Shown one piece after another: positions 6,463-18,824 of a stretch of DNA of 21,407 nucleotides. The notes beneath the pieces are model-generated. The model was not told the DNA's origin, did no database searches, and saw nothing but the letters and a program-made list of their open reading frames with translations. Source of the stretch: a virus. Made by a program: the position numbers and the translations under genes. The stretch spans positions 1 to 21,407 of IMG/VR virus record IMGVR_UViG_3300046514_000280, one strand, 5' to 3'. The stretch's first letter is position 1; the number at the start of each line of letters is the position of its first letter.

Positions 6463-7032
6463 ATGGTTGATTGGTTAAAGGTCAGACAAGGAGTCATTGA
6501 TATTCTGGATGGTTTGGGATTGGATGCTAGAGATCCAAACTTTTTCGATACACCGGATCGGGTTGTGCGGGCTTATCAAGAGATCTTTGCAGGTCTAGAT
6601 GAACGGAATACCGTTGAAGAGATGCTTAAAAGTGTGTTCCCCTGTGAACACCAACAGATGATTTTAGTTAAACATGTTGAAGTGTTTAGTATGTGTCCTC
6701 ATCATCTTCTTCCAGTCCGTTATGATATTACGGCTGGGTACTTACCTGGTCCGGGGATTCGAGCAAAGGTCTTGGGCCTGTCAAAATTGGCTAGGATCAC
6801 AAAGCTTCTAGCTGCCCGACCTGTTCTTCAGGAGCAAGTGGTTAACGATATCGCCAATACTCTAATGCGTATACCTGAATGTCGTGGGGCTGGCTGCATT
6901 GCTACTGGTGAACACTATTGTATGCGTATGCGTGGAGTCAATCAGAGTGGCTCAATTGTTGTTACCAGCGCCTTGCGTGGTGAGTTCTTATCTGATTCAA
7001 TGGTCCGTGAAGAATTCATGGACTTTAGATAG
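6463..7032 (+). CDS. folE: GTP cyclohydrolase I
   Basis: Encodes 189 residues from the ATG at 6463, preceded by GGGGGAAG; an in-frame TTG at 6451 is less likely. FolE converts GTP to 7,8-dihydroneopterin triphosphate, the first step to both folate and 7-deazaguanines. Family features are clear: MCPHHLLP (77-84), GLSKLARI (105-112), RPVLQEQV (119-126), EHYCMRMRGV (150-159) and TSALRGEF (168-175). Zinc ligands by homology with E. coli (C110, H113, C181) are C78, H81 and C153. The usual CEHH is CPHH here, a change next to the metal site. In phages folE is typically found with queuosine-type DNA modification genes, which agrees with QueC and the DpdA-like gene downstream. It is the first gene of the long operon. 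Confidence 0.95.
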   Translation: MVDWLKVRQGVIDILDGLGLDARDPNFFDTPDRVVRAYQEIFAGLDERNTVEEMLKSVFPCEHQQMILVKHVEVFSMCPHHLLPVRYDITAGYLPGPGIRAKVLGLSKLARITKLLAARPVLQEQVVNDIANTLMRIPECRGAGCIATGEHYCMRMRGVNQSGSIVVTSALRGEFLSDSMVREEFMDFR

Positions 7033-7041
7033 GAGAAGTAG

Positions 7042-7701
7042 ATGGGTATCGCTGTTGTTACTGGAGCATCTTCTGGTATTGGTAAGGCAATCTATGATCA
7101 CTTTAATACAAGCGACCGGTTTGATAGTGTTGTTGGTATAGCTAAGAACGGTCCGGATCTTGAATATGACTTGTCGAGTGAGAAGGATATTCAAGAGATT
7201 GTGGATGACCTGCGCACCGCAGGTGACATTTCTTGTCTTGTAAATTGTGCGGGAATTTTGAAGCTTGAAGAGGTTGGAAATGAAGGTCAGATATTTGACG
7301 TTAACTTTTGGGCGCCATACTACCTGACTAATGCACTAAAGCATGAGTTGATTGCTGCACGTGGTTGTGTTATCAATATTGCCTCAGTTAGTGGGATGAT
7401 TGCCGAGCCTGAGATTCCGATCTATGCCGCATCTAAGGCCGCGCTGATTTCACTGACCAAGAGTCTCGCTATTAGGTTCTCACCCTTTTTTGTTAGGGTG
7501 AATTGCATTAGTCCTGGATTTGTTAAGACGAATCTGATTCCGGGTGATACACCAATTGAACTTCTCAACGCAATCCCCTTAGGGTTTGAAGCAGAACCCG
7601 CAATGCTCCTTCCAGTCGTCGATATGATACTTGATTGTCCTTACGTTACTGGTGCAAACTTTGTAGTTGACGGCGGGGGTTCTTGTAGAGCTGCAATGTA
7701 A
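7042..7701 (+). CDS. Short-chain dehydrogenase/reductase
   Basis: Encodes 219 residues from the ATG at 7042, with AGGAGA upstream. This is a classical SDR with a Rossmann fold: TGASSGIG (7-14) binds the dinucleotide, NCAG (68-71) stands for NNAG, the catalytic residues are S115, Y128 and K132 (YAASK), and SPG at 157-159 follows. It is slightly shorter than the usual 240-250 residues, mainly around the substrate loop. It uses NAD(P)H on an unknown substrate. Pteridine and sepiapterin reductases belong to this fold, so action on a pterin or deazapurine made from the FolE product is a possibility. A nucleotide sugar is another. It lies between folE and the radical SAM gene with a 9-bp gap to folE. 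Confidence 0.9.
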   Translation: MGIAVVTGASSGIGKAIYDHFNTSDRFDSVVGIAKNGPDLEYDLSSEKDIQEIVDDLRTAGDISCLVNCAGILKLEEVGNEGQIFDVNFWAPYYLTNALKHELIAARGCVINIASVSGMIAEPEIPIYAASKAALISLTKSLAIRFSPFFVRVNCISPGFVKTNLIPGDTPIELLNAIPLGFEAEPAMLLPVVDMILDCPYVTGANFVVDGGGSCRAAM

Positions 7702-7734
7702 TGTGAGACACGGTGCCACGTAAGGGAAGGTAAG

Positions 7735-8805
7735 ATGTCTGAATTACACACACCACGGTACTCCTGCATATTCCAGTCGAGAATGTGCCCACGTTCTTGT
7801 TCCTATTGTCTGAGCAAAGACGTTAGAGGAGATGGGACTTTTCTGTCACCGGAGCAATGGGCAGATGCATTACACATTCTGGAGTATCATGGTGTCCAGT
7901 TCCACTTGTTTATCGGTAATGAACTGTTTTCCTATTCCGATCCTGTTGGCTTTGTCAAGGCAATCAAACCCTTCTATGGGAGGTATGGTATCTATTCGAC
8001 ATTCCCACCAGGATGGACTGAAAAATATTTTGATGACTGTATTAACGCTGGTCTGTATAACATCTCTGGTGGTGTGGACGTCCTTCCCGGGTTACATAAG
8101 ACAGGTGACGTCCACATTGATCGCAAGGCTCAAGCGGTGCTTAGTTGGTTGGAGTATGCGCTGATGCGCGGTGTACCGGACGTGCAAGCGCAAATTACTA
8201 TTCATCGACACAATTACGATAAGCTCTATCCATTGCTTGACTTGTGTACAGAAAAGGGGATGTGGGTTGGGTGTTCTCTAGTAGAAGCATCTGCGGATGG
8301 ACTACACGATTTTTACGGTACTGCTGATACAATGACTGAATGGTTAATACCAGCAGATGAACGTAACAAGTTTAGCGATGAGATGTACAAGTTAGCGGAT
8401 GAGGTTGCCACCGGCAGGTGGAAGATGCAGTTACCACCAACATACTTTCGTGAACTAGCAGATCGTGAAGTGAGGCGTGATCCTTGGCATTGCAGTTTGC
8501 CTATGCTGATCTCAATTGAAGAGGATGGTTCTCTGCGCGGGTGCGGGTATAGGGGACCACTATCAGAAAAATATTCGATATTCGACCTTCGTGAGGGCGG
8601 AAAGTTGCCCATGTCTGAGTATATAAGGTTGCAGAGGGAAAAGACCAGTCAGTGCCCTGGTTGTGGAGTTGGTGGCGGGGCTTGGTCGTTCTGGTGGATG
8701 GCTGAGTATTGGTTAAAGGGTGATGTGGCAATGGGAGACAGAATCTTCCAGACACATGCACCGGGGCATCTCTTTGAAGCGACGGTGAGACAGGATGAGC
8801 AATAA
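7735..8805 (+). CDS. Radical SAM enzyme with possible C-terminal auxiliary cluster
   Basis: Encodes 356 residues from the ATG at 7735, preceded by GGGAAGG. CPRSCSYC (C18, C22, C25) is the CX3CX2C site for the SAM-cleaving 4Fe-4S cluster. More cysteines near the end (WHCSL, RGCGYRG, CPGCGVGGG) resemble a SPASM or twitch auxiliary-cluster domain, including the LISIEEDGSLRGCGYRG strand pattern. At 356 residues it is much longer than QueE (about 210-250) and lacks the QGEG-type N-terminus of QueE, so I do not call it QueE. The reaction is unknown. Its place between folE and queC suggests work on a deazapurine or its side chain. Its 3' end overlaps the next gene by 11 bp. Confidence 0.85.
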   Translation: MSELHTPRYSCIFQSRMCPRSCSYCLSKDVRGDGTFLSPEQWADALHILEYHGVQFHLFIGNELFSYSDPVGFVKAIKPFYGRYGIYSTFPPGWTEKYFDDCINAGLYNISGGVDVLPGLHKTGDVHIDRKAQAVLSWLEYALMRGVPDVQAQITIHRHNYDKLYPLLDLCTEKGMWVGCSLVEASADGLHDFYGTADTMTEWLIPADERNKFSDEMYKLADEVATGRWKMQLPPTYFRELADREVRRDPWHCSLPMLISIEEDGSLRGCGYRGPLSEKYSIFDLREGGKLPMSEYIRLQREKTSQCPGCGVGGGAWSFWWMAEYWLKGDVAMGDRIFQTHAPGHLFEATVRQDEQ

Positions 8806-9052
8806 GCCAACAGTTGCTGAAGTGATGATAAAATTTCTTGTTGAAGAAAAGATTGCCAATCCTCATTCGACATCTAAGAATGCCTCGGATGAAGAAGCGA
8901 TAGCAATTTACGATAATTGTGTGGCATTTGTTGAGCGTTATTACCCTGATGTTACTACAGAAGAACTCCGCAAGGCTTTTCGTAAAGTACACAAGACTCC
9001 AGCGTCGAAGATGTGGGCTATAGCGAATAAGTACAAGGGTGGTACTGCATGA
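8795..9052 (+). CDS. Small hypothetical protein
   Basis: Encodes 85 residues from the ATG at 8795, inside the end of the radical SAM gene. It is acidic in the middle and basic at the end, mostly helical, with one cysteine. ASDEEAIAIYDNCVAFVERYYPDVTTEELRKAFRKVHKT could form two or three amphipathic helices. No family recognised. It is coupled on both sides: 11-bp overlap upstream and ATGA overlap with the methyltransferase-like gene downstream. It might be a partner protein of one of these enzymes. Confidence 0.75.
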   Translation: MSNKPTVAEVMIKFLVEEKIANPHSTSKNASDEEAIAIYDNCVAFVERYYPDVTTEELRKAFRKVHKTPASKMWAIANKYKGGTA

Positions 9053-9726
9053 AGTCCTATTCAAAGAAGACAATCAAGCGATTTAACCTAACCATTGAAG
9101 GTGATGAATTTAATGATGCTGAACAGAATAAATCACTCTATGATGATCACGTGAGTGGATATGATGAGTTGACTAAGTTGTTAGACATCAATGATACAAC
9201 CTATGTCTATCGTAAGGTACTCAATGTTGGTGCAGGTTCGGGTTCTCCGTTAAAGTTTCCCCATCCAGTTGATATGTACTATCTTGAGCCCAATCCAGAT
9301 CGGGTTGAAGAGATTGATGTCGATCGTGATGATAACATAATCTCTGGTTGGTGTGAGAACATCGAGACTGAACTAAAGTTTGATATGATTATCTGTTGGG
9401 GAACATTGTGCTTTGTACGTTCTATACCAGAAACCCTAATTCAGTTTAATGATCGTTTGTTTAAAGAAGGTATGTTGGTACTAGATGTAGTTAAATCAAC
9501 ATCATTCCCACTATGCCAGACTGCTGATCCTGATAGTTTTATTAGAAATGTGAGTTTGTATGGGTTTGAATTACAACATCGTATCCCCTTTGATCATTTG
9601 GGACACAATCGTGAGGGGATTCGCTTTAAGAAGGTTCGCGACTTTGACCCTAGGTATCTGCGGATGCCTCAGGCTAAGGATGGCTTGAGGAACTTCATCC
9701 CTGAGAGAGACTGGTTTCTATCTTAG
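9049..9726 (+). CDS. Class I SAM-dependent methyltransferase-like protein
   Basis: Encodes 225 residues; the start overlaps the upstream stop as ATGA. It has a Rossmann-type methyltransferase core: motif I VLNVGAGSG (57-65), the acidic residue ending strand 2 in YYLEPNPDRV (E80) and motif IV-like FDMIICWGTL (111-120), then a strand at LVLDVV (143-148). The N-terminal 45 residues are specific to this protein. There is no DPPY/NPPY motif as in N6-adenine or N4-cytosine DNA methylases and no PCQ cysteine of C5 methylases, so ordinary base methylation is unlikely. Small-molecule, sugar or deazaguanine side-chain methylation fits better. It lies directly before queC. Confidence 0.75.
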   Translation: MKSYSKKTIKRFNLTIEGDEFNDAEQNKSLYDDHVSGYDELTKLLDINDTTYVYRKVLNVGAGSGSPLKFPHPVDMYYLEPNPDRVEEIDVDRDDNIISGWCENIETELKFDMIICWGTLCFVRSIPETLIQFNDRLFKEGMLVLDVVKSTSFPLCQTADPDSFIRNVSLYGFELQHRIPFDHLGHNREGIRFKKVRDFDPRYLRMPQAKDGLRNFIPERDWFLS

Positions 9727-9736
9727 AGGAGATAAC

Positions 9737-10291
9737 ATGACACCTGGTCTAGTCGTTCTTACCAGCGGTGGTTTTGATAGTGCATTATTGTTACACATGG
9801 CAAAGCGGATGAACTATAATCCAATCGCCCTATTGATTGATTATGGTCAGAAACACGTTCGGGAATTGGATGCTGCTGTTAAGTTGTGCGATGATCTCCA
9901 GGTTTCCTTTAAGCGGATGAAGGTTGATCTTGCTCAAGCAGTTGACTCTGGGTTGACTGGTACTTTGCAGGGTGGTAAGTATGAGGGACTGCATGAGATG
10001 CACGTCCCTGGACGCAACACTATCTTTGTTGGTCTAGCTCTGTCACTGGCAGAAGCTGTCGGTGCAACAAAGATTTGGTATGGAGCGAATTTTGAGGACC
10101 GGATAAATGAGTTTGCGGACTGCAAACAAGACTGGGTCCTCGAGATGAACAAGTCTCTAAAGATCGCGGGAAGCTACCCAGTGGAGTTGGAAGCCCCTTT
10201 GCTTGGGATGCGCAAGGACACTATTGTGCGCATGGGTAAGCTGTACCACGATATTAAGGAAGAGGAGGTTCACAGTGGGTATGCCGTCTAA
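9737..10291 (+). CDS. queC: QueC-like 7-cyano-7-deazaguanine synthase lacking the zinc-binding tail
   Basis: Encodes 184 residues from the ATG at 9737, with AGAGGAG upstream. QueC turns 7-carboxy-7-deazaguanine into preQ0 using ATP and ammonia. Family motifs are present: PP-loop SGGFDS (10-15), DYGQKH (35-40), VPGRN (90-94), YGANFEDR (115-122) followed by DCK (128-130), and LEAPLLGMRKD (151-161). Typical QueC is about 220-230 residues and ends with an SCY segment plus a CGxCxSC zinc site. Here the protein stops just after EEEVHSGYAV (175-184), where SGY aligns with SCY, so all the zinc cysteines are missing. The other frames downstream do not supply them. It may be a working short form, or a copy cut by arrival of the next gene, whose SD and start lie inside it. 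Confidence 0.88.
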   Translation: MTPGLVVLTSGGFDSALLLHMAKRMNYNPIALLIDYGQKHVRELDAAVKLCDDLQVSFKRMKVDLAQAVDSGLTGTLQGGKYEGLHEMHVPGRNTIFVGLALSLAEAVGATKIWYGANFEDRINEFADCKQDWVLEMNKSLKIAGSYPVELEAPLLGMRKDTIVRMGKLYHDIKEEEVHSGYAV

Positions 10292-11102
10292 TAATGATAA
10301 GAAGATTCTTCACTGGAGATCCACGGCAAACGGAGGTGATCCTTCTTCTCCTACACAACCGGATTTGCCTGATGGGTTTATCACTATAAGGGAGGCTGTT
10401 AGTCTTACAGGTTTTTCTAAAACAACTATTCGTAAAACAAAAGTGACCCATCGACAAGAATGGCGTAGGATAGATGGGAGGGTATTTGTACGCAAAGACT
10501 TTATCTTGGAATATTGTGCGGTTAGAGCTAGGCTTAGGGCTAGACCTGAACCCAGGAGGCGGAAAAAGAAGTACCCTAATCGTGTACCTGCTCGTTTTTT
10601 ACTGCCTCTTAAACCAGGTGAATGGTTTATTAGGACTGAAGTTGAGAGGAGAAAGGGAACAGAAGGTGTATACCTTCACTTTGTCTCTGGTGATGATCTT
10701 TCCGATCTGAATATCTACTCGTTTGATTGTATGTATAACGCGCTTAAAGCTGGTGGGTATTCTGAACTTAAAGGTTTACCAGAATGGACTGCAGTGACGG
10801 TTCCTAAGAATCGTAATATTCCGCAGTTAGAATTTGAACACAAGTATACAAAGAGGGAACAGGGTTTAGGTCATGTATGCCGAATTGGTACAACGGATGG
10901 TGCAGCTATTCCTTCCTGGATGAAGGCTCCTGGTTTGATGAAAGGTAAAATGGAGAGGGAATCGTTTGTAGGAAAGACTATTCTGCGAATTACGGCTACT
11001 CAAATGATCGAGATGGAGGGTTTTACACCTGGAGAGTTTGTGGACGAACGTATAAAAGAAGAAGGAAAAGCTTACTGGGGTCCTCTTTGGGATTTAACTT
11101 GA
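10275..11102 (+). CDS. Hypothetical HTH protein overlapping the end of queC
   Basis: Encodes about 275 residues. AGGAGG (10263-10268) is six bases before the GTG at 10275 and twelve before the ATG at 10281; either could be the start. Residues about 33-80 look like a MerR/excisionase-type helix-turn-helix (FITIREAVSLTGFSKTTIRK, then a wing-like VFVRKDFILEY). A very basic segment follows (ARLRARPEPRRRKKK). The C-terminal 170 residues hold several aromatic and charged strands and are not recognised. DNA binding is likely. A regulator, or the DNA-recognition half of a mobile endonuclease, are both possible; no nuclease motif is seen. Its start lies inside the truncated end of queC. Confidence 0.78.
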   Translation: MGMPSNNDKKILHWRSTANGGDPSSPTQPDLPDGFITIREAVSLTGFSKTTIRKTKVTHRQEWRRIDGRVFVRKDFILEYCAVRARLRARPEPRRRKKKYPNRVPARFLLPLKPGEWFIRTEVERRKGTEGVYLHFVSGDDLSDLNIYSFDCMYNALKAGGYSELKGLPEWTAVTVPKNRNIPQLEFEHKYTKREQGLGHVCRIGTTDGAAIPSWMKAPGLMKGKMERESFVGKTILRITATQMIEMEGFTPGEFVDERIKEEGKAYWGPLWDLT

Positions 11103-11112
11103 GGGAATGAAA

Positions 11113-11493
11113 ATGGAAGAGCAGATCGCACACACTATGCTGATGAATAAGCACTATAGCCCGATGGTTGTCAGGAAGACCTCAACATGGGGCTTCCCAG
11201 TGTTTGTTGCTTTGATCACCGATGACGACTTGGCGGATCTGGATCAGGTTATTCTAAAGTTTATGCTGGATGCAAAGGCAGTCAACGGGTGGTCAGATAA
11301 TATTCAAAAGATGCGCAACCTGGCGGGAGCAATGGTTGAGATGCTCAATAATAGGTATCCGAAGGTTGAAGGATCAGCTGTGATAATTTATTCAGACAAA
11401 TGCTTCATCTCTAGTTTGCATGGCGATCTGATGACACATCTTAGTTGTAAAGTTGAACTTTTCGAGCTTCTCAATATGAGTACTGGAGTTTAG
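11113..11493 (+). CDS. Hypothetical protein
   Basis: Encodes 126 residues. I choose the ATG at 11113 because GAGGGA (11101-11106) is six bases upstream; the ATG at 11107 touches that SD. The protein is alpha/beta in character: WGFPVFVALITDDDLADLDQVILKF suggests a strand then a helix, and AVIIYSDKCFISSL a strand pair. No catalytic pattern or family recognised. It lies in the stretch between queC and the deacetylase/glycosyltransferase set, so it may belong to the modification module or be an unrelated passenger. Confidence 0.72.
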   Translation: MEEQIAHTMLMNKHYSPMVVRKTSTWGFPVFVALITDDDLADLDQVILKFMLDAKAVNGWSDNIQKMRNLAGAMVEMLNNRYPKVEGSAVIIYSDKCFISSLHGDLMTHLSCKVELFELLNMSTGV

Positions 11494-11495
11494 TT

Positions 11496-11645
11496 ATGTC
11501 TCGTCCACGTGGGTATAAACATACTGAGGCTACCCGAAAGAAGCTTAGTGAAGGAACTAAATTACGTTATGAGGCTGGGATATTGATGGGGTTTCGTGCT
11601 AAACCGTTGTCTGAGGAGGCACACGTTATGCTCAATTCCGTGTGA
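11496..11645 (+). CDS. NUMOD3-like mini-protein, possibly a homing-endonuclease remnant
   Basis: Encodes 49 residues from the ATG at 11496 to a TGA at 11643-11645, with GGAG seven bases upstream. GYKHTEATRKKLSEGTKLRYEAG (about residues 6-28) matches the pattern of NUMOD3, a short DNA-contacting module usually repeated in GIY-YIG and HNH homing endonucleases (consensus like GkkHSeEtrkKiSea). No nuclease domain is nearby, so this is either a stand-alone DNA-binding peptide or what remains of an endonuclease gene. Its stop overlaps the GTG of the next gene. Confidence 0.6.
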   Translation: MSRPRGYKHTEATRKKLSEGTKLRYEAGILMGFRAKPLSEEAHVMLNSV

Positions 11646-12094
11646 CAAAAGATGAGAAGTCATCTAAGGAATTAGCCATCTATGTCAACCATGCAGTGGA
11701 TGGACACGTTTGCGCTGACTGTTCTATGTTTGATCCACCTGCCTCTTGCAATGCAGTGGCTGGTCCAATTAGTCCAGCGGGTCATTGCAGTTTCTGGACG
11801 GCCAAAGAAAACAATCTAAGAATAAGCAGTTTCCAAGGCTTACCCGTATTTATTGAGACATCTAAAGGTGAAAGACGTAGACAAGATTGGCCTATTATGC
11901 CAGCACACTATGGATTTATTACTATGACTAACTCACCAGAAAAGAATGATGGATTAGACGTCTTTATTGGAGACAATAAAGCCTGTCGTCACTGTTGGAT
12001 TATTGACCAAATCCATCCAGATACAGAGGAGTTTGTCAATGACTTCCGAGATTCGTGGTCTTGTAACTTGCGAAATTCAAGAGATGCTCCATGA
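11642..12094 (+). CDS. HiPIP-like plus phage inorganic-pyrophosphatase-like domain protein
   Basis: Encodes 150 residues from GTG at 11642, which overlaps the upstream TGA (GTGTGA). Residues 24-49 hold four cysteines (C24, C27, C36, C49) in CADCSMFDPPASC...GPISPAGHCSFW, the pattern of high-potential iron-sulfur-like domains in phage proteins. Residues 64-130 (GLPVFIETSKGERRR, MPAHYGF, DGLDVFIG, WIIDQIHPDTEEF) match the pyrophosphatase-like domain found in phage polyvalent and head proteins. The usual following block (EHKVMLGF type) is replaced by an unrelated tail, so the fold may be incomplete. Whether it hydrolyses pyrophosphate is unknown. It overlaps the deacetylase by ATGA. The nearest AGGAGG (11614-11619) is 22 bases upstream and better placed for a 5-codon ORF at 11628. 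Confidence 0.72.
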   Translation: MTKDEKSSKELAIYVNHAVDGHVCADCSMFDPPASCNAVAGPISPAGHCSFWTAKENNLRISSFQGLPVFIETSKGERRRQDWPIMPAHYGFITMTNSPEKNDGLDVFIGDNKACRHCWIIDQIHPDTEEFVNDFRDSWSCNLRNSRDAP

Positions 12095-12552
12095 CGATAG
12101 CGATATGGGCTCCCCATGCAGATGACGAGATAATTGGTTGCTACCATGTACTTATGTCTAAAGAAAAGGTACAAGTATACTATGGGGGGATTGTTGAAGA
12201 TGGCTGCAAGAGAGCCTCTAGACTATTCGGTTTCGAATTTTACCATCTCAGCAATCTCGCTCGTCCTTGGGATGTCGTCTATGCTCCTGATCCTAATGTG
12301 GATATGCATCCGGAGCATCGCCGATTAGGCCAGATGGCCCATCAAATGTTTAGGGCGGGCAAGATAAGGCGAGTAATTCACTATTGTACAACGATGCAGG
12401 CGCCGTATATATTTGAAGTACCAGATCCCGAGGCAAAGCGGAATGCGTTGAATCAATGCTATCCTGAAAAGGGAGATTTATGGCGATACGAATGGAAATA
12501 TGTATTATTTGAAGGATACTGGGAGGTATTAAGATTGGATCATAGAAAATGA
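12091..12552 (+). CDS. PIG-L/LmbE-type deacetylase
   Basis: Encodes 153 residues; the start overlaps the upstream stop as ATGA. The family removes N-acetyl groups from GlcNAc-type sugars with a zinc ion (MshB, BshB and PIG-L are members). The metal site is complete: APHADDE (7-13) gives H9 and D12, with D11 as the likely general base, and HPEH (73-76) supplies H76 and the neighbouring H73. At 153 residues it is shorter than the usual 220-290, with loops trimmed and the family core kept. It is followed by a glycosyltransferase with another ATGA overlap, so the two are surely made together. That pairing suggests that an N-acetylated sugar is transferred and then deacetylated, or deacetylated first. 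Confidence 0.88.
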   Translation: MTIAIWAPHADDEIIGCYHVLMSKEKVQVYYGGIVEDGCKRASRLFGFEFYHLSNLARPWDVVYAPDPNVDMHPEHRRLGQMAHQMFRAGKIRRVIHYCTTMQAPYIFEVPDPEAKRNALNQCYPEKGDLWRYEWKYVLFEGYWEVLRLDHRK

Positions 12553-13496
12553 GACTGATAGTTGTACCCCAATATCCTGCGCAGCTACGATATCAATCCT
12601 GGTGGTTGACACGACTTGAAGATTACTATCTGTACTTTGATAAGGTACTTATCCTCCACCCACCGCAGTTTACCAATCAAGCTCATTTAAGTGGTGAATT
12701 TGCCCCGGCAATGGCGGCAATTGATTATGAGGTTAGACAGATCAGTTTGTATAATCAGTTAGTAATTGATGAAGAGGATGATATATTACTTCTTTGTGAT
12801 ATTAGCTTTCCTGGACTATTCTCATCTGTTTTATTTCATAAGCGTCCTAAGAAATGCTTTGCCATTTGCCACGCAACATCGCTTAATAGGTATGATTACT
12901 TTGCTGCGGTGCGTCCCGGGAAGTGGAGAGTGGAAACAGGGACTAGCAAGATATTTGATAAGATTTTTGTGGCAAGTGAGTATCATAAGGAGCGGTTAGG
13001 CTGGAAGAACACGGTGGTGATCAAGTTTCCGTTACCAAAGATTGATGAATTAGTGGAAAAGCGGTTGAGTAAGGAGCAACAACATCACCATAGTAGATCG
13101 TTTATTAGTGTGGCCCGGAAAGGGGTGCAAAAGATTGATTTAGAATTGGAGAGGTTTTTTGAATGGAGTGAGAGGACTAGTATACACAGGTTTTATCAAA
13201 CTAAAGGTAAGACTTGGACTGATTACTATGGATTTGTTGAGGCTGGGCGGTTTATGATTATTACTTCCCGCGAAGAGACTTATGGCTATCAAGTCATAGA
13301 CGCGTTATCAGTAGGCACTATTCCACTTGCTCCAAGAGCATTGTCCTACCCTGAATTGTTACCAGATGAAAATTTATACGAACCCGGAAGGGCTACTGAT
13401 CTGATAGATACGTATAAAAGGTATGGAGATAAGCCCGCGCCTCCTTTGTGGGAAGACAAGTTCTTTGAGTTCACAGCAACTGAGATGAAAAGATGA
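12549..13496 (+). CDS. GT-B fold glycosyltransferase
   Basis: Encodes 315 residues; the start overlaps the deacetylase stop as ATGA. The N-terminal half (1-160) has alternating strands and helices and a clear strand at ILLLCDISFPGLFSS (79-93). The C-terminal half holds the donor-site signature: FMIITSREETYGYQVIDAL (235-253), then SVGTIPLAPRALSYPELL (254-271). That is the EX7E-type motif of GT4-like retaining enzymes, with Asp in place of the second Glu (E243, D251). The donor sugar is not readable from the sequence. There is no signal peptide or membrane segment, so it acts in the cytoplasm. Its gene overlaps the DpdA-like gene, which makes modified DNA or a deazapurine nucleotide a plausible acceptor. 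Confidence 0.85.
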   Translation: MRLIVVPQYPAQLRYQSWWLTRLEDYYLYFDKVLILHPPQFTNQAHLSGEFAPAMAAIDYEVRQISLYNQLVIDEEDDILLLCDISFPGLFSSVLFHKRPKKCFAICHATSLNRYDYFAAVRPGKWRVETGTSKIFDKIFVASEYHKERLGWKNTVVIKFPLPKIDELVEKRLSKEQQHHHSRSFISVARKGVQKIDLELERFFEWSERTSIHRFYQTKGKTWTDYYGFVEAGRFMIITSREETYGYQVIDALSVGTIPLAPRALSYPELLPDENLYEPGRATDLIDTYKRYGDKPAPPLWEDKFFEFTATEMKR

Positions 13497-14581
13497 AAAA
13501 CTATGTGGTAATGTTGGATAGCGGTGCCTGGACTGCCCATACCAAGGGTATGACGATTAACTTGGATAAGTATGCAGAATTTGTTCATCAGAATAAACAT
13601 CTGTTTGGTGGTGGTGTGTTCAATTTGGACTTCATAGATCCACCGGTCTCTGCTGCATACCAGACTGAATCAGCTGAAAAGAGCTATAAGAACTGGATTG
13701 AGCTGCGCAAGCTTGGGATTGATACCATACCTGTTCACCATATTGGCGATGATGACGAGTCATACCTAAAGAAGTATTTAGAGCAGACTGATTATATTGG
13801 AATTGGTGCAATTGCCAAACTAAACGCTGAAGCTCGAATTTACGGACTTGATTATATCTGGAAAGAATATCTGTCAAATAAGGATGGTACGCCCAGGTAT
13901 AGATGTCATGGTCTTGGTTTGACTGATATCAAGATCACGCTGCGCTATCCTTGGTTCTCTGTGGATAGTACTCGTGCGATTATGCTGGCTGCACATGGTG
14001 GTATCTTGCTGCCTAAACTTGATGGTGACAAGTTCTCCTACAGAGAGATATACCAGGTTGCGGTGAGTAATCAAGGTCGTAGTCATTATCGGGGTAAGGG
14101 TGATAGTTTTTATGGCATGTCAAAGCTCATCCAGGGTCAGATAAAGCACTATTGTACTTCGTTAGGTTATGAGTTGGATGATTCTATTGCGGGACGTACA
14201 CTTAATCCCCTGATGAAGAGTCGAAAGAAGGTAGATGGTAAGTGGACGTCAGATTTTGCTTCACGTCAATTGGGGTTCCCTGAAGAAGCTGCGCTTGCTG
14301 ATGCTCCTTTAGTAAGTAACAATGTAGATGAGAAGAACTTGTCGGCAAGCTGGGTTCCCAGGTTTATCTTTAATCTATATGTGTCGGATCAGTTTATCAA
14401 GTATTGGCGCACACAAGGTAAAACGATCAGGATCTATAATGTAGTTGGTGGAGGCAATGTGTTCGACACGTTTGTTGTTGGATCACAGAGTGTCCCAGCT
14501 AATAGATGCTTGGTCAGTTATGCTAGGCTTTCCGGTTCCTTTCTTGATCGGTTAAAAGAGGTTGTCAATGGACATCACTAG
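13493..14581 (+). CDS. dpdA: TGT-superfamily DNA transglycosylase, DpdA-like
   Basis: Encodes 362 residues; the start overlaps the glycosyltransferase stop as ATGA. tRNA-guanine transglycosylases and their DNA counterparts (DpdA) swap a guanine for a 7-deazaguanine base. Visible matches: LDSGAW (8-13) corresponds to the TGT DSGGFQ motif, with D9 as the base-contacting Asp; IGIGAIA (102-108) to the substrate-pocket Gly loop; HGLGLTD (139-145) to the late strand motif; and FSVDST (155-160) places D158 as the likely nucleophile. The tRNA-type CXCXXC zinc site is absent, as expected for a distant, non-tRNA branch. With FolE and QueC in the same operon, DNA modification is the best reading. Its last bases overlap the sliding clamp gene, which links modification with replication. 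Confidence 0.75.
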   Translation: MKNYVVMLDSGAWTAHTKGMTINLDKYAEFVHQNKHLFGGGVFNLDFIDPPVSAAYQTESAEKSYKNWIELRKLGIDTIPVHHIGDDDESYLKKYLEQTDYIGIGAIAKLNAEARIYGLDYIWKEYLSNKDGTPRYRCHGLGLTDIKITLRYPWFSVDSTRAIMLAAHGGILLPKLDGDKFSYREIYQVAVSNQGRSHYRGKGDSFYGMSKLIQGQIKHYCTSLGYELDDSIAGRTLNPLMKSRKKVDGKWTSDFASRQLGFPEEAALADAPLVSNNVDEKNLSASWVPRFIFNLYVSDQFIKYWRTQGKTIRIYNVVGGGNVFDTFVVGSQSVPANRCLVSYARLSGSFLDRLKEVVNGHH

Positions 14582-16032: not shown

Positions 16033-17268
16033 ATGCCAATACCGAGGTTATTCGGGGATAATGAACCTCCAGCTAAAGGTGGGCTGGGTAAACCTCTGTC
16101 ATGTGTATCTTGTGGTCTGTATAATGGACCAATCAACCCAAAGATGCCTCCCTTCGGGGATTTCAAGAAACAGATTATGGTTATTGGTGAAGGACCCGGT
16201 GAACAAGAGGATCGAAAAGGTAGACCATTCCAGGGACCAACCGGTAATGCTATCAAAGAAGCATTGAGTGATCTTGGTATTGATCTATTTCGTGATTGTA
16301 TAAATTTGAATGCAGTTAATTGTCGACCACCTAGTAATAGAGCACCATCTGTCCACGAGATTGCGTGTTGTAGAGCGCGGATAGTGTCCCCCGCTATAGC
16401 TGCGCATAGTCCTCGATTAATGCTGCTACTGGGCGGGAGCGCCGTTACTAGTGTCCTTGGAAGTGTGCTACCGGAAGCGCAGGACTCGAGCATTGGAAAG
16501 TGGCGTGGTTTTCACATCCCTCTACCGGAATTAGGTGCCTGGATTTGCCCAACGTATCATCCCAGTTATGTTTCCAGGTCCAGTGATAGGCCTGAAGTAG
16601 AGACAGTTTGGAAGAATGATTTGAAACAAGCTATTGACTTGCTAAATGTATCTGTACCCAGAGTAGAGATTTTACGTAATAGGATTGTTCTTCTTCATGG
16701 TGAAGAAGAGATTCTTAGAGCATTGAATAGGGTAAAAGTACGAAAAGGTCTGTTCTCATTTGATTATGAGACTGTAGGATTAAGTGCAAAGTTACACAGT
16801 ATAGTTTGTGCGTCTTTTTGTCAGTCACCTGAGCGTGCGTATGCGTTTATGTTTACTGATGCTTCCGAGGCTGTTCGTCAAGCTTGGCGGGATATTCTAG
16901 TAAACGAAGATATTGGTAAGATCTCACATAATCTATCATTTGAATATGAGTGGAGCCGCTTCCATTTTGATATTGATGAGATAAATTGGGCTTGGGATAG
17001 TATGCTTGCAGCACATGTTATTGATAATCGTACGGGTATTTGTGGGTTAAAGTTTCAATCTTTTATCAATTTTGGTGTTGTAGGGTATGAGAATTTAATC
17101 GATCCCTATTTAAAGTCTGTAACACCGCGAGATCCCACTGCGCCAAACCGTATACTAGAGTTTATAGAGAGGCATGGTGAAGATGAATGCCTAATCTATT
17201 GCGGGATTGACTCCCTTCTCGCCTATAGGTTAACCATGAAGCAAATGAAAGAGATTGAAGATGGCTGA
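16033..17268 (+). CDS. Family 4-like uracil-DNA glycosylase fused to a 3'-5' exonuclease
   Basis: Encodes 411 residues from the ATG at 16033. Residues 20-205 form a uracil-DNA glycosylase of the iron-sulfur type: C24, C27, C97 and C112 or C113 are likely 4Fe-4S ligands, GEGPGEQED (52-60) is motif 1, NAVNCRPPSNRAPS (93-106) the family block and HPSY (176-179) the catalytic-loop motif. Residues 238-405 are a DnaQ/Pol I-type exonuclease: FDYET (D244, E246), HNLSFEYEW (299-307, Glu where Asp is usual), WDSMLAAHVID (D322) and YCGID (Y389, D393). In some phages these domains are the N-terminal part of one long family A polymerase; here the polymerase is a separate gene at 17445. It would supply proofreading and perhaps uracil handling. 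Confidence 0.88.
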   Translation: MPIPRLFGDNEPPAKGGLGKPLSCVSCGLYNGPINPKMPPFGDFKKQIMVIGEGPGEQEDRKGRPFQGPTGNAIKEALSDLGIDLFRDCINLNAVNCRPPSNRAPSVHEIACCRARIVSPAIAAHSPRLMLLLGGSAVTSVLGSVLPEAQDSSIGKWRGFHIPLPELGAWICPTYHPSYVSRSSDRPEVETVWKNDLKQAIDLLNVSVPRVEILRNRIVLLHGEEEILRALNRVKVRKGLFSFDYETVGLSAKLHSIVCASFCQSPERAYAFMFTDASEAVRQAWRDILVNEDIGKISHNLSFEYEWSRFHFDIDEINWAWDSMLAAHVIDNRTGICGLKFQSFINFGVVGYENLIDPYLKSVTPRDPTAPNRILEFIERHGEDECLIYCGIDSLLAYRLTMKQMKEIEDG

Positions 17269-17467
17269 TGTTCACTTTGATTTTGGTATTTGGAATCAAA
17301 AGGCAGGTTGGATAGGAAAGTGCCCTAAACATGGTCCTCAGCAGAGTGGTCTTTCTATTTCCCTCCCACCCCTAATTAGAAATTATTGTGGTGAATGTTT
17401 AATTGAATTGTTAGATCAGTTTTGTCATCCTCTGGAGTACGTCAATGAAAATGATGGAAGCCTATAA
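17261..17467 (+). CDS. Small Cys/His protein between the two polymerase halves
   Basis: Encodes 68 residues from the ATG at 17261, overlapping the exonuclease gene by 8 bp; its end overlaps the polymerase gene by 23 bp. GKCPKHG (about 21-27) and YCGEC (about 42-46), with a later CH pair, make a likely zinc knuckle. WNQKAGWIGKCPKHGPQQSG suggests a small nucleic-acid or protein-binding module. No family name. Its place between exonuclease and polymerase genes raises the possibility of a bridging subunit, but a simple passenger gene is as likely. Confidence 0.72.
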   Translation: MADVHFDFGIWNQKAGWIGKCPKHGPQQSGLSISLPPLIRNYCGECLIELLDQFCHPLEYVNENDGSL

Positions 17468-18824
17468 GCTGCTCCAACGAGGGGCTGAAGCTCTTACCCT
17501 TGTAGAGGAAGCGGGGATTTGTATTGATCTTGTTTATGTTAGGGAGAAACTGGCTTGGGTTGAGCAAAAGTTAAAGCAGTCAGAATTACGACTAAAGAGC
17601 AGTGAGTTAGGCATTGCTTGGCTTGGTCGCTATGGTGATGCAATGAAGATTCAAAGTGTCCCTCAATTGAGACACATCCTTTATCAGGATATGCGAGCTA
17701 AACCATTCAAGATGTCTGAGGGTGGTGAAGAGAGTACAAACGAGGAATCCCTTCGACAGACTAATGTTGATGGTGTTGTCCATTTGTTGCGGATGCGGAG
17801 GCTGAAAAAGGCTAAAGATGTTTTGAAAGTGTTGATTAGATCTACAGTCAATGGCAAGATCCACCCATCTTTTCTGTTGCATACAGTATCAACGTATAGA
17901 TCGTCTAGTGCTGATCCCAACCTGCAGAATATACCAGCCCGAGATAAAGAAATTATGGACATCTGTAGAAGGGCGTTTCTTCCCAGCCCTGGTCATATTT
18001 TGATGGAGATTGACTTTTCAGGTATTGAAGTCGGTATTGCAGCAACTTATCACAAAGATCCTGTAATGATTAAGTACTTACAGGATGAGACAAGTGATAT
18101 GCACGGGGATATGGCAGGTGAGATTTTCTTGCTGCCCAAATTGAATACCCCTCTCAAAGAGATGGAAGGTGGGTATACATTAAGGCAGTCAGCAAAGAAC
18201 GGGTTTGTCTTCCCGCAATTCTACGGTGACTATTACGAGCCCTGCGCGCTTAATGTCGCTTGTTCCTGGTGCAAGCTACCAAAGGATGGAATGTGGAAGC
18301 CTAATCACGGTGTTGTATTTAATGGTAAACCCATAGGGGAACATTTGATATCTAAAGACATTGATTCGTTTAGTGTATTTGTTGATCACATGGAACGGGT
18401 ACAAAACAACTTTTGGGGCAAGCGTTTCAAAGTATATAATGCTTGGAGAAAGACTTGGCATTCTAAGTACCAAAAGACCGGTGAATTTGAAATGAAGACC
18501 GGGTTTAGGGTCTCCGGTGTTATGGAAAAGAATCAAGTAATCAATTTCCCTGTACAAGGGGCCGCATTCCATTGTTTGTTATGGTCTTTGATTGAAATGG
18601 TAAAGCAGTTAAAGGGTTGGCAGAGTAAGGTGGTTGGTGAGATACACGACAGTATGCTGATAGATGCACATCCAGACGAGATCTCTGATATTATTCTAAT
18701 GGCGCAGCAAATCTGCACGGTCGATCTACCAAACCACTGGTCTTGGATAGATATACCTATGCGTATCGAAGTTGCTGCCTCAGAAATAGATGGTAACTGG
18801 GCTGAAATGAAAGGTGCAGCATGA
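17445..18824 (+). CDS. Family A DNA polymerase, polymerase domain only
   Basis: Encodes 459 residues from the ATG at 17445, with GGAG eight bases upstream. It begins at the thumb (GICID, 24-28) and lacks the exonuclease, which is encoded upstream. TYRSSSADPNLQNIPAR (150-166) is the conserved template-grip block. Motif A is EIDFSGIEV (188-196, metal ligand D190). Motif B is RQSAKNGFVFPQFYG (247-261, with R247 and K251). Motif C is EIHDSMLID (399-407, metal ligand D402), with Ser where most family members have Glu (HDE). Both catalytic aspartates are intact, so it should be active. Motif B is one residue longer than in E. coli Pol I, so the 762-equivalent cannot be assigned safely. The stop overlaps the clamp-loader ATG as ATGA. 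Confidence 0.93.
   Translation: MKMMEAYKLLQRGAEALTLVEEAGICIDLVYVREKLAWVEQKLKQSELRLKSSELGIAWLGRYGDAMKIQSVPQLRHILYQDMRAKPFKMSEGGEESTNEESLRQTNVDGVVHLLRMRRLKKAKDVLKVLIRSTVNGKIHPSFLLHTVSTYRSSSADPNLQNIPARDKEIMDICRRAFLPSPGHILMEIDFSGIEVGIAATYHKDPVMIKYLQDETSDMHGDMAGEIFLLPKLNTPLKEMEGGYTLRQSAKNGFVFPQFYGDYYEPCALNVACSWCKLPKDGMWKPNHGVVFNGKPIGEHLISKDIDSFSVFVDHMERVQNNFWGKRFKVYNAWRKTWHSKYQKTGEFEMKTGFRVSGVMEKNQVINFPVQGAAFHCLLWSLIEMVKQLKGWQSKVVGEIHDSMLIDAHPDEISDIILMAQQICTVDLPNHWSWIDIPMRIEVAASEIDGNWAEMKGAA

Follow-up and report, generated by a model that had tools for sequence, protein, structure and literature searches.

A phage gene set that probably places an amino sugar on 7-deazaguanine in DNA, with relatives in many phages

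We analysed a stretch of viral DNA of 21,407 nucleotides (IMG/VR record IMGVR_UViG_3300046514_000280, positions 1 to 21,407; hereafter the window), in which a gene run at 6463–14581 combines enzymes of 7-deazaguanine synthesis and insertion with a glycosyltransferase (GT) and a PIG-L-like de-N-acetylase. The phage probably swaps guanines of its DNA for a 7-deazaguanine bearing an amino sugar, and related gene sets occur in many phages. We regard it as fairly probable that the operon serves to hypermodify DNA, by a pathway in which transfer of a sugar of the N-acetylglucosamine (GlcNAc) type is followed by deacetylation on a 7-deazaguanine destined for DNA. This reading is based on the families of the genes, the folds predicted for their products, the gene order and an association that recurs; from these we infer the identity of the sugar, the acceptor atom, the order of the steps, the presence of the product in virion DNA and its protective role. 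A first-pass annotation of the sequence had placed FolE, QueC-like, PIG-L, GT4-like and DpdA-like genes, the last related to tRNA-guanine transglycosylases (TGT), in one uninterrupted run; Pfam, PHROG, alignments and predicted folds bear this out, and the list of open reading frames (ORFs) of the window agrees with a single-strand run.

Association of the glycosyltransferase and deacetylase with 7-deazaguanine genes

Megablast of the whole window against phages gave no match, and tblastn of its radical SAM protein found no phage match; therefore, divergent relatives were sought by profile. The GT alignment retrieved 295 relatives in IMG/VR, the best 80 of which were surveyed, while the PIG-L alignment retrieved 58 loci, of which five come from copies of the window phage and some lie on near-identical contigs. 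The contents of the loci were scored within about 10 kb, using profiles built from the module proteins. A FolE, QueD, QueE or DpdA type was found in 78 of the 80 GT loci and in 53 of the 58 PIG-L loci; the loci with no such match are L075 and L089 in the GT set and L122, L132, L163, L169 and L171 in the PIG-L set. FolE, QueD or QueE alone account for 72 GT loci and 51 PIG-L loci, at least two of the three are present in 49 and 22, respectively, and a DpdA1 or DpdA2 profile (working names of this analysis, as is DpdAx) matches in 37 and 23. On the other hand, none of 86 random loci, drawn by two arbitrary 15-mers and totalling 692,084 bases, matches any of the 13 profiles.

Counting by clusters corrects for the window-phage copies and the near-identical contigs among the PIG-L loci. 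At 90% identity, 99 of 105 GT clusters have que or DpdA genes; at 50% identity, these genes occur in 24 of 26 clusters, PIG-L in 11 and both in 10. The association of GT and PIG-L with 7-deazaguanine genes exceeds local chance. The view that the two belong with the 7-deazaguanine and DpdA genes, advanced in the first-pass annotation, is strongly supported by the clusters at 50% identity and by the predicted folds.

The GT and PIG-L genes are also linked to each other. A GT match is present in all 58 PIG-L loci, at most 1.5 kb from PIG-L in 52 of them, and PIG-L occurs in only 7 of the 80 GT loci, as expected if the GT acts first.

Proteins of the operon and their neighbours

ATGA starts at 12091, 12549 and 13493 each overlap the preceding gene by 4 bases, at the pyrophosphatase-like/PIG-L, PIG-L/GT and GT/DpdA junctions; the chaining of PIG-L, GT and DpdA noted in the first-pass annotation is thus correct and extends one gene upstream.

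The DpdA-like DNA guanine transglycosylase (13493–14581, +) matches phrog_887 (1.2e-33) over residues 6–180, as do all 12 members of its alignment, and is 27.4% identical to the DpdA of phage 9g over 61% of the query. Its predicted model (12 sequences, pLDDT 80) superposes in VIA on TGT chains with Z 13.4 over 225 residues at a root-mean-square deviation of 3.1, and places the protein within the TGT fold, outside of which the first-pass annotation would have withdrawn its reading. Foldseek also matched the model to tRNA-guanine transglycosylases, with a best E of 0.0059 and none at 0.001. The DpdA profile found only chance matches among PDB sequences, and it was the fold search that decided. 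Residues D9, D46, H83, H139 and D158 are invariant in 12/12 alignment members. Among the other transglycosylases, the X1 protein matches phrog_10773, a PHROG without function label, and DpdAx (from phage PAC2, 540 amino acids, no PHROG match) rests on 17–20% identity to the DpdA2 set plus a DSGG motif; DpdA calls in the GT set number 60, of which 23 are by DpdAx only.

The GT (12549–13496, +) is weak as a single sequence (phrog_4356, 0.002), and PF00534 is matched at E 0.01 by 6 of the 14 members of its alignment, the window GT not among them. Its predicted model (m6a9292945ba2, 14 sequences, pLDDT 83) has a GT-B fold of the GT4 kind. Foldseek places TarM, BshA and MshA among the leading rows, with 85 chains at E up to 0.001, and the 50 VIA rows shown have Z 18–21 over about 260–310 residues. 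TarM, BshA and MshA use UDP-GlcNAc, and BshA and MshA act ahead of PIG-L deacetylases in bacillithiol and mycothiol synthesis.

The PIG-L-like protein (12091–12552, +) matches PF02585 at 8.2e-4, under the cut-off, and 3 of 14 alignment members match this family at E 0.01. The HxDDE metal motif and a later histidine are invariant in 14/14 members. Over the 58 loci, 52 proteins fit both strict motif patterns, four lack the second and two the first; one of these two reads CHPDDE and the other is cut at a contig end. The profile matches two PDB sequences labelled uncharacterised, 3we7 (0.002) and 3wl4 (0.0046), which we take to be diacetylchitobiose deacetylases.

For the base itself, FolE (GTP cyclohydrolase I; 6463–7032, +; PF01227, 2.6e-51) lies in the window, while QueD and QueE lie outside it, 14 kb downstream in the same phage. 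The window corresponds to 59843–81249 of the longest record of this phage (92,966 bases), with 21,406 of 21,407 bases identical and one mismatch. QueD is found in five of the six same-phage records searched, at 88209–88664 of the longest, where QueE follows at 88905–89609 (PF04055, 1.1e-9; QueE-like PHROG, 5.7e-32). With these, the gene set for 7-carboxy-7-deazaguanine (CDG) is complete.

The QueC-family PP-loop ATPase (9737–10291, +; PF06508, 1.9e-35) is matched up to profile position 184 of 210 and keeps SGGFDS, YxQxHxxE and VPGRN. The motifs of QueC, among them the zinc motif C(x)8CxxCxxC, are defined in PMC13329287 (this and the other papers given by PMC number are cited from excerpts). 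The zinc motif is missing from 21 of 24 distinct module QueC sequences and kept in three, and 19 of the 21 zinc-less sequences have S/T-G-Y near the C-terminus; QueC of L141 has FSGY followed by a tail, while that of L193 fits neither pattern. The zinc-less clade with S/T-G-Y comprises the window protein and relatives among L121–L201, and it may carry out amide-only synthesis or act as a ligase. A tyrosine in the zinc region of QueC was found to be essential (PMC13329287) and, judging from its position in the sequence, may be the tyrosine of S-G-Y. A canonical preQ0 pathway is less certain than the first-pass annotation suggests: the zinc motif is absent from the window QueC, and four named phages in which a related GT adjoins que genes (ACP17, Phosso, BUCT-ZZ01 and PAC2) have no QueC match; phage X1 has a sub-threshold match only.

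The radical SAM enzyme (7735–8805, +; PF04055, 2.2e-8) has extra conserved cysteines: all 11 alignment members match PF04055, and Cys 253, 270, 307 and 310 are invariant in 11/11. By inspection the protein is SPASM/twitch-like, and SPASM models gave no match. Its profile gives partial-length matches to the structures of SkfB (2.3e-9) and MoaA (4e-6), and models of PqqE and MoaA match the family far under cut-off. A FabG-like short-chain dehydrogenase (SDR; 7042–7701, +; PF00106, 6.4e-29) and a class I methyltransferase-like protein (9049–9726, +; PF13489, 2e-6, barely over cut-off) flank it, the latter beyond a small ORF.

A conserved protein of unassigned function (w128; 11107–11493, +), with no Pfam or PDB match, mostly sits between QueC and PIG-L. 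Homology of this protein to the T-fold-like phrog_17812 was considered and is unsupported (hhalign probability 0.6%). phrog_17812 itself resembles QueD (75%, E 2.5e-5), has no significant PDB match, and its profile matches 66 of the 80 GT loci. This QueD-like domain is fused to PIG-L in L015:2606–3382 and free-standing in phage X1 (L026:18642–19013), with relatives also in ACP17, Phosso, BUCT-ZZ01 and PAC2.

The run described in the first-pass annotation has the positions given there, although it includes three ORFs which, among the loci scanned, are present only in copies of the window phage. These are the small ORF between the radical SAM and methyltransferase-like genes (8795–9052, +; no match in Pfam and PHROG), an ORF at 10281–11102, and a gene with an inorganic-pyrophosphatase-like domain (11642–12094, +; PF18823, 5e-10); membership of the first and the last in the module is uncertain. 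In the last, a Cys-rich N-terminal stretch precedes the pyrophosphatase-like domain, an odd fusion; an iron oxidase model matches this stretch far under cut-off (5.9e-5).

The surrounding genes belong to replication: a protein with uracil-DNA glycosylase (UDG) fused to a 3′–5′ exonuclease domain (16033–17268) is assigned by Pfam, and the helicase, sliding clamp, polymerase and clamp loader by inspection. The sliding clamp, which follows DpdA, has no Pfam match and is labelled by inspection only; the family A polymerase domain is likewise assigned by inspection, in a separate gene (17445–18824) downstream of the UDG-exonuclease gene. Elsewhere in the window, the ORF at 1013–2107 carries a long Thr-Pro repeat in the middle of the protein.

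Related operons in other phages

In IMG/VR, the DpdA and GT queries each returned seven loci. Six of the DpdA loci are full-length at 100% and one covers residues 62–362; five of the GT loci are full-length at 100%, one, at the end of a contig, covers the final 41 residues, and the remaining one, L015, is a relative with 25% identity. Scanning with GTs of the window type yielded 34 loci, many of them on contigs found before, plus one GTDB contig (L187). Excluding the five window-phage copies and including L187, 30 window-type GT loci were counted, half of which (15/30) have DpdA1. The DpdA1-bearing loci contain GT (15), radical SAM (13), QueC (13), the homologue of 11107–11493 (14), PIG-L (14), FolE (12), QueD (11), QueE (11), SDR (8) and methyltransferase (5). 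In the other 15, SDR, radical SAM and methyltransferase are each found in 0/15, QueE in 11/15 and PIG-L in 13/15. The loci share the order QueD-QueE-FolE-SDR-radical SAM-methyltransferase-QueC-unknown-PIG-L-GT-DpdA, except where genes are lost or, in some cases, have moved; the window phage departs from it in having QueD and QueE apart from the rest. Overall, an operon with radical SAM, SDR, QueC, PIG-L, GT and DpdA recurs in divergent phages. The GTDB contig (PUNT01000062.1), binned in a metagenome-assembled genome of Halanaerobiales, has a near-full window-type operon with no methyltransferase match; it is probably a phage contig and offers a possible hint of the host.

More distant relatives keep the association in other arrangements. 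L015 has in one run PIG-L, a PAPS-reductase-like PP-loop protein, GT, QueD, QueE, FolE and DpdA, together with a protein that weakly matches a methyltransferase (0.035). In the complete genome of Xanthomonas phage X1, FolE, a PP-loop protein, PIG-L (L026; annotated start 15028, read here from 14944), GT, phrog_17812 and QueE lie together with a gene annotated as queuine tRNA-ribosyltransferase; the QueD profile has no match in this stretch. The X1 GT matches 16 phage records, X1 included. As representatives we examined Acidovorax phage ACP17, Sinorhizobium phage Phosso, Synechococcus phage BUCT-ZZ01 and Pseudomonas phage PAC2; of the remaining 11, ten are Pseudomonas phages and one is the ACP17 entry of RefSeq. 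In all four the GT lies within about 5 kb of QueE, accompanied by FolE in three and by QueD in two, and ACP17 and BUCT-ZZ01 encode a phrog_10773 protein like that of X1.

Two further arrangements were observed. Xanthomonas phage PhiXhv-15 (L027:12465–16551) carries a glutamine-amidotransferase-QueC fusion with the zinc motif kept, a deacetylase annotated as PIG-L, a related GT and an oxidoreductase-like gene; its FolE is elsewhere in the genome and its transglycosylase match is very weak. Some large phages with PIG-L and GT (L136, L124, L139, L144, L193, L195 and L196) have a weak nucleoside 2-deoxyribosyltransferase-like gene, fused in L136:6824–7645 to a homologue of 11107–11493. Four records bearing this gene were searched whole with phrog_887: three gave no match and L139 a weak one. 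These genes hint at a nucleotide-level route. Replacement of DpdA by the deoxyribosyltransferase was considered and not adopted: since Nuc_deoxyrib_tr is under cut-off and three of six records have weak DpdA matches, it remains only a lead.

Proposed pathway, alternatives and significance

In the pathway that we favour, FolE, QueD and QueE would make CDG, which the QueC-family ATPase would amidate to the amide or convert further to preQ0, and DpdA would put the 7-deazaguanine into the phage DNA in place of guanine. Either ahead of this exchange or following it, the GT4-like enzyme would put an N-acetyl-hexosamine on the 7-substituent; the simplest source would be GlcNAc from UDP-GlcNAc, suggested by the PIG-L partner and the likeness to BshA and MshA. 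The PIG-L enzyme would then strip the acetyl group and leave a free amine, while the radical SAM, SDR and methyltransferase proteins may further tailor the sugar or the linker. The resulting base would add bulk and probably positive charge to the DNA, and would protect it from restriction enzymes.

Several observations weigh against this pathway. Regarding the survey, the GT loci were the best 80 of those retrieved, and the random loci average 8.0 kb, as compared to up to 21 kb for the test loci. Because of this difference in length, matches were also counted closer to the query: 73/80 GT and 33/58 PIG-L loci have them within 4 kb, and 55 and 27 within 2 kb. PIG-L is absent from 73 of the 80 GT loci, so deacetylation is not general. 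No DpdA profile matches in the stretch searched of 35 of the 58 PIG-L loci, and six DpdA-less records searched whole with phrog_887 gave three weak matches and three none; neither phrog_887 nor phrog_10773 is matched in Phosso and PAC2. As for the proteins, the window GT matches no Pfam family over cut-off, and its closely ranked VIA rows (BshA, MshA, sucrose-phosphate synthase, tetrahydrobiopterin glucosyltransferase) cover many donors and acceptors, so that the fold decides neither and does not single out GlcNAc. The window PIG-L scores 20.3 bits against a PF02585 cut-off of 28.2, and the QueC ORF stops before the zinc motif. Finally, QueF, which makes preQ1 in only some 7-deazaguanine systems, does not pass the cut-off in any of 8 records, so that an obvious amine acceptor may be missing. 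There were three sub-threshold matches, of which the best (0.0026) falls within FolE of ACP17; G001 and G002, classed as linear in IMG/VR and possibly fragments, gave nothing at E 0.1.

A more specific form of the pathway is conceivable, although we hold it only tentatively: an aminoglycoside-like group on DNA guanine in a widespread class of phages, in which a hexosamine on 7-deazaguanine is deacetylated and remodelled to a cationic base. By analogy with aminoglycoside pathways, the radical SAM protein and the SDR might together remodel the hexosamine by oxidation, epimerisation or deoxygenation, and the methyltransferase might add to this; in phages without QueC, the sugar might be carried by CDG itself or a CDG product.

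The missing zinc motif also fits a different chemistry, which we consider unlikely. The GT could make a small molecule that contains GlcNAc, and PIG-L would free its amine; the zinc-less QueC would couple the carboxylate of CDG to this amine, and DpdA would insert the resulting conjugate with its amide-linked amino sugar. Consistent with this, a PP-loop ATPase, QueC-like or PAPS-reductase-like, is present in 37 of the 58 PIG-L loci and the motif is lacking in most module QueC sequences (21/24); furthermore, QueC-family deazaguanylation, the coupling of 7-deazaguanine to protein, is described in anti-phage defence (PMC13279940) and proposed for QatC (PMC13329287). However, the three module QueC that keep the zinc motif fit ordinary preQ0 synthesis, and the stretch searched shows no PP-loop protein in 21 of the 58 PIG-L loci. 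Since 73 of the 80 GT loci lack PIG-L and 74 a PP-loop match, the GT has a role without these.

GT4 and PIG-L pairs are usual in pathways of the surface glycan or thiol type. The two proteins could thus serve another target, such as a host surface glycan, a virion protein or a mycothiol-like thiol, and be mere neighbours of the 7-deazaguanine genes. The PIG-L gene of phage DLP3 indeed adjoins the sugar genes WcaG and WecE, in a phage whose DNA also resists 15 restriction enzymes (PMC7326821). We find this explanation improbable, as the same neighbours recur in 24/26 GT clusters with varied gene orders and transglycosylase types, against 0/86 random loci. Glycosylated queuosine occurs in animal tRNA, and the transglycosylase has a TGT fold. 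That the pathway would modify tRNA rather than DNA, with a glycosylated queuosine-like base, is nevertheless very hard to sustain, because the window enzyme matches the DpdA of phage 9g, 9g DpdA and Gat-QueC have been shown to modify DNA (PMC6884629), and the genes are placed among phage replication genes.

The proposed hypermodification pathway shares features with several known systems. Its base-making enzymes and TGT-fold DpdA are those of phage 7-deazaguanine modification (9g, CAjan, Rosebush; FolE, QueD, QueE, QueC, DpdA), to which the window adds the GT, PIG-L, radical SAM, SDR, methyltransferase-like and 11107–11493 proteins, with a QueC that lacks the zinc site and no QueF over cut-off in the 8 records. 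With bacillithiol and mycothiol synthesis (BshA/BshB, MshA/MshB) it has in common that a PIG-L deacetylase would act after a GT4 enzyme, and the GT model has BshA and MshA among its nearest solved structures; unlike there, the neighbours are 7-deazaguanine genes, and we do not class it as a member. Glycosylated queuosine is likewise a sugar-bearing 7-deazaguanine nucleoside, but in tRNA and not in DNA, and we know of no deacetylase acting on it. The DNA glucosyltransferases of T4-like phages also shield the genome by adding a sugar to a modified base (PMC13216743); their base is 5-hydroxymethylcytosine, whereas here the GT is of the GT4 kind and accompanies 7-deazaguanine genes.

Such a modification would likely be new. 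The phages of PMC6884629 are explained there through the genes for preQ0, either by themselves or combined with ArcS, QueF-L/QueF or Gat-QueC; its main text has no word starting with glycosyl, sugar or deacetylase and does not name ACP17 or PA5oct. Further modification of the 7-deazaguanine base in certain phages is mentioned in PMC12783734, citing Cui 2023. No sugar on 7-deazaguanine was found in the excerpts of PMC12028318, PMC10761892 (Paride), PMC13390438, PMC12707154 and PMC8306585. Among the papers listed by the literature searches, judged by titles and the starts of abstracts, none describes a glycosylated 7-deazaguanine in phage DNA, a scope beyond which lie Cui 2023 and a 2024 review; the one listed paper with an exact phrase of this kind is a tRNA review. 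Within these same titles and abstract starts, the first-pass annotation was likely right that no described 7-deazaguanine modification uses a GT with a deacetylase.

The gene set thus points to a kind of DNA armour not yet described. If the proposal is true, hypermodification of DNA with sugars would be built on 7-deazaguanine as well as on modified pyrimidines, and this in many phages rather than one; a nucleoside not yet known would be predicted in phages already isolated. The enzymes would be new as well: a GT acting on 7-deazaguanine, a nucleobase-linked deacetylase and a zinc-less QueC. It would also raise the question of which restriction or defence systems the modification evades or triggers.

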